Positions 35,025 through 48,065 of a DNA stretch of 64,000 bases are shown piece after piece. A model generated the notes under the pieces. The model was given only the letters and a program-made list of their open reading frames with translations. It was not told the origin of the DNA and searched no databases. The translations under genes were made by a program, and so were the position numbers. Position 1 is the stretch's first letter; each line of letters starts with the position of its first letter. The DNA comes from Mycoplasmataceae bacterium (lineage in GTDB: Bacteria; Bacillota_I; Bacilli_A; Mycoplasmatales; Mycoplasmoidaceae): NCBI GenBank assembly GCA_031265955.1, contig JAISBY010000011.1, positions 1-64,000 of the forward strand, given 5' to 3'.

Positions 35025-37211
35025 ATGCCATTAAAAAAGAAAGTTATTCGTTCATTAATTTCTGCGGTTCCTTTAGGGGTGACGGTGGCTAGTTTAACAG
35101 TAAATTTAACTGCATGTAGCACTTCAATCACTTTGCTAACTTTATTAGGAAATGGTCAAAACGGTACCATTGATACAACCATAGTAACTTTAACTAGCGA
35201 TAAACCAATCATCGGATTAAGCAATAATGACATTTCTTTCACCAATGCTAATGTGGTTGTTAATAGTGTTACTACCGACAAGAATGTTTATACCATTAAC
35301 ATAACAGGTGATTGAATTAATAATACAACAGTCGGTATTAAAGTTTCTAAAAAAGGTTATAGGTTCGCTAACAAAACATCATCAATAACTTTATGAAAAG
35401 ATACACAAGACTATGTTGACGTTACCAATTTACGTCAAAATGGTGGCATGTTTGCAACTGTTGACACGAAATCTTTATCTTTTGATGCGGATAGTGTCAT
35501 TCCTGATTTAACCATTGATAATATTACCTTCACTAATTCCAAAATTAACAAGGGTACATTGAGTTTCACTGGCACAACTTATACGATTACTATTACTGGT
35601 AATTGAGCTAACAACGATACCACCACTATGACGATTGACAATCCAACGGGAGATGTCATTACCAACGATACTACTGCCGTCACTCTTTACAAAGACACCC
35701 AAGAATATGTTACCATTTCTAATTTGCGTCAGAATGGTGGTGAGTCTGGCACTGCTGGCACGGTGTCTTTGTCTTTTGATGCGGATAGTGTCATTGATAA
35801 TTTAACCGTTGGTGATATTACTTTCACTAATTCCAAAATTAACAAGGGTGAGTTGAGTGTCAGTGGCACAACCTATACCGTTGCTATTACTGGTAATTGA
35901 GCCGACAAGGACACCACTACTATGACGATTGAAAATCCTGTGGGAGATGTCATTACGAACGATACTAATGCTGTTATTTTATACAAAGACACCCAAGACT
36001 ATATTACCATTTCTAACTTGCGTCAGAATGGTGGTAAGCCTGATACTGCCGACACGGTGTCTTTGTCCTTTGATGCAAATGCTGCCATTCCTGGTTTAGC
36101 CGTTGGTGATATTACCTTCACTAATTCCAAGATTAACAAAGGTGAGTTGAGTGTCATTGGCACAACCTATACTGTTACCATTGATGGTACTTGAGGCAAC
36201 ACCGATACCACTACTATGACGATTGAAAGTCCTGTGGGGGATGTCATTACAAATGATACTAATGCCGTTACTTTGTACAAAGACACCCAAGAATATGTTA
36301 CCATTTCTAACTTACGTCAAAATGATGGTAAGTCTGGTACTGCCGACACGCAGTCTTTGTCTTTCGATGCGGATAGTGTCATTGATGATTTAGCCGTTGG
36401 TGATATTACTTTCACTAATGCCAAAATTAACAAAGGTGAGTTGAGTGTCAGTGGTACAACTTATACTGTTACCATTGATGGTACTTGAAGTAATACTGAC
36501 ACCACTACTATGACGATTGAAAGCCCTGCCGGAGATGTCATTACAAATGATACTAATGCCGTTACTTTATACAAAGATATCAGACCACAAATTGTTGTTT
36601 CTGATTTACAATCTAATGGAACTAGTGACGAATCAACTACCACCAACATTAGTTGAACTATGAATAATCAATCTATTAGATTTACCGTTGACGATATTAC
36701 CTTAACCCCAGGTGGTACTGCAACTATTAATAAAGAACATGTTTATTATGATGTTGACACTGGAAAATATTTTTTGGAAATTTCTGGTACTTGAGAGGAT
36801 TCTACCAGTGCAACATTAAGCATTACAAAAGCAGGATACAAATTTACAATAGATAACCCAACCGTTACGTTATACAAAGATAATCAAACTCACATCCATT
36901 TGTTAACTTTGGTAGCAAATGGTGGGGATGGTCATTGGACCAGTCAATTGTATCTATTTATTGATGATTTAAGTAAGTGAGATGATAGTTGAACTGCAGA
37001 TGATAATATGACATTTACAATAGATGGTAATCCAGTTTTTGCTGGCAAAGGACTAACGATTGAAAAAAACACAGATTATATTACTATTGTTTTAACAGGT
37101 GACGCTCAGGCACAATTTAGTAATGGTAAAATGGTATATTTTGAAATGTCGGCTTCAGGTTATGAATTTACTGGCGGTCCTCTAACGGCAATACTAAAAG
37201 GAGGTCTTTAA
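35025..37211 (+). CDS. Repeat-rich surface lipoprotein (728 aa)
   Basis: Lipobox LTAC (Cys about 31) after a clear signal peptide. The body is a beta-sandwich-like repeat of 98 residues. Each unit begins LYKDTQxY and includes ISNLRQNGG, SLSFDADSVI, ITFTNSKINKGELS and TYTVxI. Four units run from 35391 to 36566 with exact 294-bp spacing, then diverged units follow to the C terminus. Codons within repeats are nearly identical, so copy number can change by recombination. It is third in the surface operon, 2 bases behind the previous stop. Confidence 0.85.
35391..36566 (+). repeat. Four tandem 294-bp repeats in the surface lipoprotein
   Basis: Units start at 35391, 35685, 35979 and 36273, each beginning with a Leu-(Tyr/Trp)-Lys-Asp codon set; a diverged fifth begins at 36567. 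The period is exactly 98 codons. Similarity is high at both DNA and protein level, pointing to recent expansion. Confidence 0.9.
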
Positions 37212-43258: not shown

Positions 43259-44662
43259 TTACGGTAATTTAAACCCTACATAAGATCAATCGTCCGGTAT
43301 ATTTGCTATGGGTTTATGCTCTCCTTGATTGTCATTCCAAGCTCATGCAGTAGTTGAATTATTGTTGTTGTAGTGAATTGTGTGATTTGCCCCAACCCCA
43401 CATTCATCAAAAGCTTGATTGCCAATAGATGTTGGATTACTAGAATTATTTCAATATACATCGGTTAAATTATTGCATCCGTAAAATAGCAGTGAGCCGA
43501 TACTAGTCACCCCTACTGGAATATGAATTTCTTTAAGACTTGTACATTTATAAAAAGTTGAATTACAAATTTTACCAGTTGCTTTGGCATTTGTTAAATC
43601 GATACTCTTCAAACTTGTGCATTCCGAAAAGGCTGCGTCAACGATAGAATTTTCCGAAGTAAATCAATCATTAAGAGAATCCTTCATATCACCAGAAATT
43701 AGTCCTGCTTTACGAATTCAAGTTTTCCCAATTGCAGCAACGATTGCTGCACCAACAATATTATTTCCTGATTTATTTTCTACATAAGCGAGATTACTTT
43801 TATTGATACTATTTTTTAATTTCTCAATTCCTGAAACTGTTAAGCTTGGACAGCCTTCAAAAGTACCATCGGCGATAGAATCAATTATCGTAGTCTTACT
43901 AGTTGAAGGGGTGATTGTTTCCAAATTTGTACATTCTTCAAAAACATTTATTCCAATAGAAAAAGTACCTCCTGGCAATAAAATTTCCTTAAGATTTTTA
44001 CACTGGCTAAATGCTCTTTTAGCAATAGTACCTGCAAAAGATGTTGACGACAAGTCAATTTTTTCTATTGATTCACAGCGGAAGAAGGCGCTGGCCCCAA
44101 ATAATGATAATGTAACGTTAGAATCTATAGGAAATAAGACATTTTTTAAACCAGTGCATTGAGTAAAAGCAAAATCTCCGATTGAAAGACTACCAGATTT
44201 TGGTAGCACCACGGTTTCAATCTTAGCACATGCAGCGAAGGCACCCATGTCAATAGAAAGACCAGATGTGTTATTTTCAAAAGTAATTTTAATGTTTCTT
44301 GCTTCAGTTGTTAGAATTGGATTTTCCATAAAAGCTTTTTCTTTAATAGAAGAAAAATTAGATAAATCTATACATTCGTATGCTGATGCAGCGAATGCTT
44401 TGGTTGTATCCTTTTTAAAACCACTCAATGCACCGTTTCTTTCAGCAAAATAGGTATCTCAATCTGGACTATTAGGTGACAAGGTTTTAGAAACTATTGG
44501 AGGTTGTGGCGGAATGTTATTTTGCTTAGTATGCCATATTGCATAGCCAATACCCAATCCAATTCCTCCAGATATAACGAACGAAGAAGCTATGCCTAGC
44601 ATAATTTTCCTTCTACGATTTTTCCATGATTTTAATCATTTTTGTATTTCTTTGTTTTCCAT
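43259..44662 (-). CDS. BspA-like leucine-rich repeat surface protein (467 aa)
   Basis: A short basic cytosolic end (LKSWKNRRRKIM) is followed by a single helix (LGIASSFVISGGIGLGIGYAIW) and no lipobox, so the protein is membrane-anchored with an outside C terminus. Then come about 350 residues of LRR_5/BspA repeats, for example GAFAACAKIETVVLP, FAFTQCTGLKNVLFP, RAFSQCKNLKEILLP and VFEECTNLETITP. Late Trp are UGA. It likely binds host or bacterial surfaces. It is divergent from the AG-repeat leader at 44988. Confidence 0.82.
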
Positions 44663-44946
44663 ATTTGTTCTCTTTAAATATATTTATTAATTGTCATTAT
44701 TCAAAATCACAATAAATGAATAGTTATTTTTACTATTACTCACAATTATTTTGAATAACATATTACTAATATATTGGGAAAATTTACTTCTTTAAAATAT
44801 TTAACTAATGTTCATAAAAAATGATTTTTTTGTAATGCAAACACTATACATGGTATGAATTTTGTGACGCATAAATATTAAATGAATCATCACGGATGTA
44901 ACTCATTACCTTTGACTACTGCGTTAGGAATAATGATTTACAATAA

Positions 44947-44977
44947 TTGAAATGGGAAAATATGTTAATGCTATAAT
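44947..44977 (+). promoter_or_regulatory. Promoter of the AG-repeat leader
   Basis: TTGAAA (44947-44952), 19-base spacer, TATAAT (44972-44977). Transcription would begin at about 44984, a few bases before ATG 44988, giving a nearly leaderless short ORF that holds the AG repeat. The segment 44663-44946 is otherwise AT-rich with no gene seen. Confidence 0.55.
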
Positions 44978-44987
44978 GTATTCCAAC

Positions 44988-45032
44988 ATGAGAGAGAGAG
45001 AGAGAGAGAGAGTAAATATGCCTACGGCATAG
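44988..45032 (+). other. Leader ORF containing an (AG)11 repeat
   Basis: ATG is followed by eleven AG units (44991-45012), giving Met-(Arg-Glu)n. At eleven the frame reads MRERERERVNMPTA and stops at 45030-45032, 18 bases before the terminator stem. With twelve units it stops at once (TAA). With ten it runs through the whole terminator hairpin to a TAG at 45110-45112. So unit number decides whether ribosomes cover the hairpin. The ORF has no ribosome site of its own and could be chance. The repeat is certain; its role is inferred. Confidence 0.5.
44991..45012 (+). repeat. (AG)11 dinucleotide repeat
   Basis: Twenty-two bases of perfect AG, the only long dinucleotide repeat I saw in the window. 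Placed just after the promoter of a surface protein gene. Such tracts change length by slippage. Confidence 0.95.
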
Positions 45033-45050
45033 TTTTTTCTTCTTTCTCTA

Positions 45051-45085
45051 AACAAGATATAGCTTTTGCTATATCTTGTTTTTTT
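45051..45085 (+). terminator. Perfect intrinsic terminator in the leader
   Basis: AACAAGATATAGC (45051-45063), loop TTTT, GCTATATCTTGTT (45068-45080), then a T-run to 45085. The 13-bp stem has no mismatch. It stands between the promoter and the gene at 45132, with no upstream plus-strand gene to end, so it acts as an attenuator or ends a small RNA of about 100 bases. Confidence 0.85.
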
Positions 45086-45131
45086 GCACCTCTCAGTCTA
45101 AATACAAACTAGAAAAGGAGACAAATAGATA

Positions 45132-46466
45132 ATGAAAAAACATTGGTCAAAAAAGGCGAAATTTACATTATTGATTCCATCAATAACAATAGGCGTGGGT
45201 GGCGGTACTTATGGAGGACTAGCGATTGCTGGATATGTATTCCATGTTGGCCCGTTGGCACATAACGCAATAAACGTTAACGAAATTTTTGGAATAGGTT
45301 TTGCTTGAAATGCAAATAATTATGAAGGACCTGGTTCATCAGAAGCAAATGCATTAAACGACAATCCAAACATCGATGTAATGAATGCCAGAATTATGAC
45401 ATGATTAACTGAAAATGATAAAACCCAATATTTCAATGTAGTTAATGACTTAATATATGGCGCGCCAGTTATTTCAGGAAGTACTTATACCATTACTGTC
45501 ACTACTTCTGGTTCTAGCTATTCAGGTAGTTTTACAATTACTAGTATTTACATTGACACATCCACGCATAATTTGAATACCGACGTGTCAAACAAAATTG
45601 TTGACGATACATCTGTGCTAGGAACAACTGTAGGAGCAGTATTGCAAAAACTTAAAGATAATAATACAAATCTAAATTTAAATGCAGTAGCAATTTCTAC
45701 TGCAGGTTTTGTTGATCCTAGCGCTACTATTAGTAGAGATACAGCAAGTTCTTTATGAACTGAATACGACTCCACTAATCACTACTATGCATATCAATTC
45801 ACACTAAGTGGCTTAGACAATTCACAATACACAGGCCAAAGCATTTTAATTAATGTTAAATTACAAAGAACTGCTTACCCACTGGAATCAGCGGTAACAT
45901 TTGCAAGACATTTTTATGAAGTTCCTAACTTAGAGCAAGTAAAAGATACATTTGATAGTGCTTATTCTGCTCAATCTTGATACACGAACTTTATGTCTGT
46001 GTCAACTAATTTATCTTGAGGAACTATCTCCACTTCATGCACACTTACGTATGGAGATGCTAATCAATATTATTTATCGGGTTCTACATCATTCACACTA
46101 AATATCGATAATCCTACAGCAATTTCTGAATTATTTTTAAGTGACGATAAATCTCTAAACATTGTGAACGATACAATTGCTACACCATTAGTATTCTATA
46201 CAGATCCATCTAGCGCTGATTTATCAAACGCTTATCAAGACGTATATGTCTTATTAACAAATAGATATGTTGGTAATTATGGAAGTGAAACTTGAATTAA
46301 TTTCAATAGTTTAGATTTTACATCAATGTACGCTACAGGAGTAAATGCTAGTGCTGGAACTAGCGGTAATAAAGGAACGATCACTATTAGCGCACTTAGT
46401 GGTTCAACAATTTATTCTGGTTCATTAAACATAACTTGACAATCTTGGAATTACATTCCCGTTTAA
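45132..46466 (+). CDS. Surface protein, N-terminally anchored (444 aa)
   Basis: A signal-anchor (FTLLIPSITIGVGGGTYGGLAIAG) without a lipobox is followed by an extracellular part rich in Ser, Thr, Asn and Tyr with repeated beta segments such as STYTITVTTSG, STIYSGSLNIT and YSGSFTIT. Five or more Trp are UGA. No known domain is clear. An AAAAGGAG ribosome site lies 11 bases before the ATG at 45132. Expression would depend on passing the leader terminator. It is followed by another surface gene 24 bases on. Confidence 0.72.
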
Positions 46467-46490: not shown

Positions 46491-48065
46491 ATGAAAAAGC
46501 ACTTATGTAATCTAATCGTTCCTATCGTAGGGGCTGTTTCATTAACTTCTAATGCAAATATAAATCATTCACTTGCAAATGTTGAATCTATAGATATAGG
46601 TACTATTATTACCAATACCAACATGGGTTTATTGTTGACAAAACCGACACCTAATACAATTATGGCGTTTATCAATAATCAAATTATGTCCACACAATAT
46701 AAGGATTTAATTAATGATTTAGAAATTGACGGTTCCATCGGCGGTTCGCAAACAACCGTAAAAGTGGCATGAGGTACTAAATACATAGGAAGCGTGAACA
46801 TTGTCTACACAATTTCTGTCAAACAAAATTTATCTAATATCCAATTATTGAATAATGGTGAGATAAATTCATTATCCAATCCATATTCAACTATACCGGC
46901 AGATGGAGAAATATTAAATGCATTGCTTAATTTAGATAATGATTTACGAATCAATCAACTCTACATCTTTTCTATACAATATGACGAAACTCACACGATG
47001 ACAGGAAGCGACTATTCAGGTGCACATTCTGTCATAGTTAAACCATACGAAAATAGTAATATTTATACTGGATCACTTGAAGTGTTTTTTTGTACAAGTA
47101 AAATGAATATTGCTGATGATTGTACTGTAAACTCAATATCAATTCCATCATATTACACATTGAGTAATATTCCTACCAATACTTTATTAACAAAAATTAT
47201 AGTTAGCAATCCTAATATTACTACTAGTAAGTTAGCCGGAACTAGCTACTCTCTCGCTAAAGGTGCGTCTAATATCACTCTAACCATTAATAATTCTAAT
47301 CAATACTACAATGTCTCACAAGTAACACTAACAGTAAATACTACTAATTTAGACACATGTAAAGCTTGAAATTATACACTAGATCAAGTACTTGCTAATT
47401 CTGATGATTCAGGATGAGACATAGTTGGTGACAATACTAAAGGTACGCTAAGTTTTTTTGTAATTGATGAGAACACAAAGGAAGTAAATGTTTGTGACTC
47501 TGGTAAATACAAAAATGTTTCGCCTGGAGTCAATGCACGAACCGAACCTCCTGCTGGAAAAATTTCAACGTCTAAATTAACACTTGGCACTAGAATAATT
47601 AGTCCTGATGGGAAAATATACAGATGTACAGGATTTGTCGGCAGCGATGCGGCATTAGTTTGGGGCGGAGCATTTGCCAATAACTCGTCTCTTATCGGAA
47701 CTATAACTATACCGTCGTCATATGGAAATTTAGTCAAAGATATATTTAGAGCTACAAAAATTCAACATATCGTATTTGGTAATGGTTGAAATTCAATACC
47801 AAATTCTAACACTGATACTTGTTGATTTATGAGTACTACTCTGCAATCAATAGATTTTCCCGAAACTTTTACTACAACTCCTGTTGCCGCTAATTCCAAT
47901 ATATATTCGGCAACACAATATGCTTTTAGAAATACTACTCAAGTACTTACTGGTGCAACATTTTCAAGCAGAACCATATACGTTCCCGATAATTTAATTG
48001 ATGCTTATAAAGCATCGTCTTGATCAAACAATACAATCTTATCGTTATCTCAATGGCCAAATTAA
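46491..48065 (+). CDS. Variable-type surface protein with BspA-like C terminus (524 aa)
   Basis: A hydrophobic N terminus (LCNLIVPIVGAVSLTSNANI) acts as a signal sequence and has no typical lipobox. The next 130 residues resemble mycoplasma lipoprotein-17-type repeats: NTNMGLLLTKPTPNTIMAFI followed by a beta strand pair ending KYIGSVNIVYTI. The last 150 residues match BspA/LRR_5 repeats, with SIDFPETF and the cap RTIYVPDNLIDAYKASSW. A broken copy of this cap is at 43002-43143. It probably shares the transcript of the gene at 45132. The ligand is unknown. Confidence 0.75.

Follow-up and report, generated by a model that had tools for sequence, protein, structure and literature searches.

What is the function of a leader reading frame built largely of AG repeats that stands between a promoter and a perfect hairpin, ahead of a gene for a surface protein? 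The locus lies in the window, the whole 64,000-nucleotide stretch of a Mycoplasmataceae bacterium contig (JAISBY010000011.1) analysed here. Its parts and their recurrence in related genomes make it very probable that the leader is a phase-variable, translation-dependent transcription attenuator driven by slippage.

Organization of the leader

The elements of the locus are as follows.

44947-44977, plus strand: promoter, with a weak -35-like TTGAAA (44947-44952) and an extended -10 box TGcTATAAT (44969-44977), assigned by sequence
44988-45032, plus strand: leader reading frame at 11 repeats, 14 codons, MREREREREVNMPTA-like and mostly Arg-Glu repeats, ending with TAG at 45030-45032; predicted OFF
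44991-45012, plus strand: slippage-prone (AG)11 array directly after the leader ATG, among the genome's five arrays of at least seven units
45013-45015, plus strand: TAA right behind the array, where the 12-repeat frame ends, assigned by sequence
45017-45031, plus strand: hairpin 1, 6 bp with a 3-nt loop, overlapping the TAG that ends the 11-repeat frame; suggested to make the polymerase pause
45050-45085, plus strand: hairpin 2, the putative intrinsic terminator, with a 14-bp stem (45050-45081) and seven T at 45079-45085, assigned by sequence and fold
45110-45112, plus strand: TAG ending the read-through frame (10 or 13 repeats), beyond the terminator, assigned by sequence
45115-45120, plus strand: AAGGAG, ribosome binding site serving the regulated gene, assigned by sequence
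45132-46466, plus strand: regulated gene, encoding a 444-aa surface or secreted protein with a hydrophobic stretch at its N terminus

The promoter, near-leaderless ATG, (AG)11 array, terminator and surface-protein gene that a sequence-only reading had pointed out are all found in the sequence. TATAAT (44972-44977) is directly preceded by TGc, giving an extended -10 box, and its spacing from the -35-like TTGAAA at 44947 is poor (19 nt). The leader ATG (44988-44990) begins 11 nt past the end of the extended -10 box and likely lies about 3 nt from the presumed transcription start. The AG array, which begins 13 nt 3' of TATAAT, is far beyond chance, shuffles of the window giving an expectation of 0.00 for (GA)7. 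A search of 44700-45300 against Rfam returned no leader or riboswitch at the gathering score.

The three reading frames behind the array end at very different places. With 12 repeats the leader stops at the TAA at 45013, with 11 at the TAG at 45030-45032 and with 10 at the TAG at 45110-45112, which is 34 nt before, 17 nt before and 63 nt beyond the start of the terminator stem, respectively; the outcomes are those claimed earlier for 10, 11 and 12 units, with a gap of 17 nt at 11 repeats where 18 had been given. The window copy, with 11 repeats, is predicted to be OFF. The regulated gene is whole only under code 4 (TGA as Trp), indicating that the organism is a mollicute, and code 4 alters no leader stop because the window leader lacks any TGA that matters.

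Elsewhere in the Mollicutes, as in several genes of the present genus (L086, L093, L198 and L212), AG arrays shift the frame of the protein that they lie in, and the window array might likewise be thought to act on the downstream protein itself by coding-region phase variation. The window gene is served by a ribosome site and a start codon of its own, which speaks against such a switch and leaves it a practically negligible probability. A fusion of leader and gene was also considered and rejected, since every leader frame in the window stops before the gene and no frame is shared.

Proposed mechanism

We propose that transcription would begin about 3 nt ahead of the leader ATG and that a ribosome would initiate at once, translating Arg-Glu repeats across the AG array. 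With 11 or 12 repeats it would stop at the array TAA or at the TAG in hairpin 1 and leave the RNA before the terminator; with the ribosome gone early, hairpin 2 would fold and transcription would end (OFF). Slippage to 10 or 13 repeats would let the ribosome enter or cross hairpin 2 with RNA polymerase still in place, and with a ribosome on it the terminator could not fold, such that the surface-protein gene would be transcribed (ON). Hairpin 1 may pause the polymerase and give the ribosome time to catch up. By analogy with the amino-acid attenuators, we infer that it is a pause site at a point where a newly started ribosome would otherwise be left behind by the polymerase.

The putative terminator and hairpin 1

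Hairpin 2 comprises 14 perfect pairs (45050-45063 with 45068-45081) closed by a 4-nt loop, so the perfect stem reported earlier ahead of the gene stands, its length being 14 pairs and not the 13 first counted. The fold has an energy of -17.9 kcal/mol and a z score of -8.5 against shuffles. When the outer ten pairs of the stem were compared in 15 leaders, pairs one to six were standard in all of them and pairs seven to ten in 11-14, and several positions had two-sided (compensatory) changes; judged by this comparison, the stem is maintained though its sequence changes. A T run follows directly 3' of the hairpin in all leaders folded (45), and the leaders ahead of DNA methyltransferases, described below, have stems unrelated in sequence with the same T run.

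The T run bears on a different view of hairpin 2, namely translational coupling, in which a read-through leader hands its ribosomes to the gene and the hairpin is a barrier to initiation, not a terminator. The read-through stop in the window (45110-45112) lies just 5' of AAGGAG and about 20 nt before the gene ATG, as such a handover would want, and the methyltransferase-type leaders, in which the hairpin stands between ribosome site and ATG, are compatible with coupling. However, coupling has no need of a T run behind the hairpin; the read-through stop falls inside the stem in most leaders; and it lies at widely differing distances from the start of the gene (offset 58 vs 124 in the C7 copy, 79 vs 113 in C5a). 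Coupling is accordingly unlikely, and attenuation by termination is preferred.

Hairpin 1, which the sequence-only reading did not mention, stands between the AG array and the terminator in the window, and counterparts of unrelated sequence occupy the same place in most leaders. It is weak in the methyltransferase-type leaders, and in one leader no counterpart was found. In the window, a pyrimidine-rich tract at 45035-45049 can pair with the AG array, enclosing hairpin 1.

This pairing raises the thought of an RNA-structure switch that works without translation, in which the length of the array tunes the folding through its pairing with 45035-45049. The minimum-energy fold of the window leader does pair AG with the CU tract, and the 16 nt preceding the stem are 76% pyrimidine across leaders, as AG-CU pairing would want. 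Against it, one AG unit more or less should alter little once the CU tract is paired, and the start codons, stop codons and frame pattern are left unexplained. AG-CU pairing as a length switch was rejected on the geometry of the window leader: it has no overlap with the terminator stem and so cannot prevent the terminator. An RNA-only switch is very unlikely, and we return to the translated leader.

A family of leaders in the genus

The window genome (980 kb, 11 contigs) contains exactly five (AG)n arrays of at least seven units, and all five lie in leaders of the same build: a -10 box, the array, a TAA, the small hairpin 1, a pyrimidine-rich stretch, the terminator hairpin 2, a ribosome site and the gene. 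The four arrays besides that of the window lie on contigs 5, 7 and 11. The -10-like box begins 17-22 nt 5' of the array in 5/5, and the TAA adjoining the array is present in each of the five. The genes behind these leaders are unrelated; four encode surface or lipoprotein-like proteins and one a zinc-dependent alcohol dehydrogenase.

Among 36 genomes of the genus searched, 52 leaders were found in 11 genomes (ten besides the window genome), 13 of them in G021 alone. Array, start, frames and terminator are kept across the 52, which backs the earlier proposal of a slippage-driven attenuator. Most of the genes behind them encode surface proteins; besides these there are DNA methyltransferases and a dehydrogenase. 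The array-plus-hairpin pattern, searched in 320 genomes of the order, occurs in 7 genomes of the genus and in one other as a stray match, and a reversed control of the pattern gave zero matches in the same 320 genomes.

A simpler account does without switching: the 5' leader would be an ordinary one, its terminator constitutive and leaky, and the AG array in it frozen or there by chance. The near-limitation of the pattern to the genus and its absence from the reversed control argue against chance, and the same logic in 52 leaders with repeat numbers from 7 to 21 argues against a frozen or a chance array, making this account highly improbable. Slippage in such leaders probably turns entire sets of genes, for surface proteins and for DNA methylation, on and off. 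A broader view can be offered only tentatively, as a possibility to which we give somewhat less than even weight: genus-wide modular attenuators in uncultured Mollicutes would set many surface proteins, and in some species DNA methylation, randomly and independently, with hairpin 1 as a dedicated pause hairpin and the frame alone deciding termination.

The second leader type occurs in G025, G026 and G035, ahead of DNA methyltransferases, and has the ribosome site 5' of the hairpin and the start codon 3' of it. At six methyltransferase starts (L088, L094, L095, L096, L099 and L102) GGAGG stands before the terminator hairpin and ATG just behind it, an arrangement in which the folded hairpin would bring both together; the hairpin may therefore double as a terminator in transcription and a spacer in translation. 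Positions 1-1521 of L088 share 1519 identical bases, including the methyltransferase gene, with L096 (minus strand); the two genomes are filed as different species, and the identity reflects either a recent transfer or a binning error.

Other AG arrays in the same genus (L085, L086, L093, L198 and L212) lie within coding regions of methyltransferase-like or unknown genes and, as their sequences read, are ordinary coding phase variation alongside the leader type. In the rest of the order, most AGn-TAA arrays lie within coding sequences, where it is usually the same frame that continues into a long protein, and it looks as if a coding switch has turned into a leader switch.

Frame logic and start codons

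For 45 leaders the stem was placed by folding and the stop of every frame after the array was located; seven more, found later by a pattern requiring no stop codon behind the array, complete the 52. All 52 have one or more frames that stop at least 16 nt before the stem and one or more that enter it. The seven later leaders all obey this rule, and in three of them the entering frame differs. In 44 of the 45, the frame whose first codon past the array opens with two array bases (AGT or AGC) is among those entering the stem.

Openness of a frame is weak evidence by shuffling (0.34-0.87 per locus), and testing it jointly with an early stop gives a stronger result: for 15 representatives, shuffle probabilities for one open frame and one early stop are 0.17-0.33 each, with a product of 5e-10 if the representatives are independent, an assumption to be read against the fact that many leaders are paralogues. 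A start codon in the open frame stands 3-32 nt 5' of the array in 47/47 checkable leaders (43 ATG, 4 GTG; two of the window-genome leaders start with GTG only), and the product of shuffle probabilities for an in-frame ATG is 9e-8 over 13 representatives. The ATG columns are 100% conserved in 24 paralogues, a figure that is partly circular because the rows were anchored on ATG, and the case for the start codon therefore rests on the shuffle test.

The present states of 47 leaders fall into 29 that stop at least 16 nt upstream of the stem and 18 that stop at or in the stem, with none between. Leaders predicted to be OFF have gaps of 16 to 46 nt, and all five leaders of the window genome are predicted OFF in the assembly. 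Predicted ON and OFF states can be read per locus in this way from an assembly, and the phase states of uncultured symbionts are thus predictable from sequence. The read-through frame has no third-position excess of substitutions (36, 45 and 19 at first, second and third positions), suggesting that the position of the ribosome, not the peptide, is what matters; the leader peptide does not look conserved or under selection.

Repeat-length variation

The number of AG units spans 7 to 21 among paralogues and relatives, and near-identical leaders within G021 have 8, 10, 11, 11, 12, 14, 16, 18, 18 and 21. Two loci from different species bins that are identical over 1519 bp carry 8 units and at least 9 units, the latter array lying at a contig end. 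Several other contigs end exactly at an array (C1 and C20 of G021, C16 of G027 and C1 of G035), as is expected of arrays that vary or repeat. The repeat number of the window array may likewise change within its population.

Relation to known systems

Surface genes of mycoplasmas are known to be switched by repeats in promoter spacers, such as the TA repeats of vmc and related genes and the GAA repeats of vlhA, which alter promoter spacing or a regulator site. The leaders described here share with them slippage-type repeats, surface-protein families and the Mollicutes as hosts. Unlike in the promoter-spacer switches, the window array lies 3' of the -10 box, within the transcript, and not between or upstream of the hexamers. 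Control of a terminator by leader translation is familiar from the trp and his attenuators, in which an early pause hairpin keeps ribosome and polymerase in step and the decision is made by tRNA supply at control codons and an antiterminator hairpin. Here, in contrast, the frame would decide; the leader is mostly Arg-Glu, and hairpin 1 has no overlap with hairpin 2.

Attenuation that depends on translation needs coupling of ribosome and polymerase, as seen in Mycoplasma pneumoniae, where the ribosome trails the polymerase in direct physical contact (PMC8116511). The closest AG array in a characterized gene is that of MmyCI mod in Mycoplasma mycoides and its homologues, which lies in the coding region, with 12 units stopping at a TAA and 10 units being active (PMC3498834). 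As in MmyCI mod, the window array is followed by an immediate TAA, with one open frame and two early stops; the difference is that the MmyCI mod array is in the coding frame of the enzyme, whereas here it lies in a separate leader before a terminator.

The sequence-only reading knew of no switch that joins slippage, translation and termination. This combination has been shown for the pil1 locus of Streptococcus gallolyticus by Danne et al. in 2014, where GCAGA repeats alter how long a leader peptide is, a long leader prevents a terminator and so raises transcription, and removal of the leader start or of the stem acts as expected; pil3 is laid out alike, with supporting data (PMC3894217). Since pil1 has the same parts and logic, the window switch is not a new kind, and the precedent makes the combination plausible but not new. 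The window family resembles pil1 and pil3 in having a repeat array inside a leader frame and an intrinsic terminator before surface-protein genes, and in that out-of-frame changes shift the leader stop into or away from the terminator, with read-through predicted here to be the ON state. As in S. gallolyticus, the stops of present leaders form two classes, predicted here from sequence.

The S. gallolyticus isolates with low expression stop at least 28 nt before the terminator, and those with high expression within about 4 nt of it or beyond (PMC3894217). The window gap of 17 nt in the OFF frame is shorter than 28 nt, and the 11-repeat state could therefore be leaky. The leader variants form a natural series for testing at what distance a ribosome begins to block a terminator.

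The differences concern the repeat unit (7-21 AG dinucleotides here against 22 and 13 GCAGA pentamers in S. gallolyticus), the leader start (near-leaderless here against a clear ribosome site) and the number of loci (5 to about 14 per genome in the richest genomes here against two). Hairpin 1 and the methyltransferase and dehydrogenase targets are features of the present family, unlike pil1 and pil3, and no sequence relation is claimed; the repeat-leader-terminator logic seems to have arisen separately here from Streptococcus. What is new is the dinucleotide, near-leaderless version in Mollicutes, its use at many loci and the recurrent extra hairpin. In the open-access literature, no second system joining repeats, leader and terminator was found besides S. 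gallolyticus; the one described switch of this kind that was found governs two pilus loci of one Streptococcus, against many uses per genome here.

The putatively regulated gene and its neighbours

The product of the regulated gene (45132-46466) has no match in Pfam or NCBIfam. A second surface ORF lies on the plus strand at 46491-48062, 25 bases 3' of the regulated gene, and may be on the same transcript. Divergent from the switch, the minus strand at 43262-44662 encodes a BspA-type leucine-rich surface protein. Farther away in the window, the ORF at 35025-37211, read with code 4, encodes a lipoprotein-like product of 728 aa that contains four tandem repeats of 98 residues (294-bp period, 84% matches).
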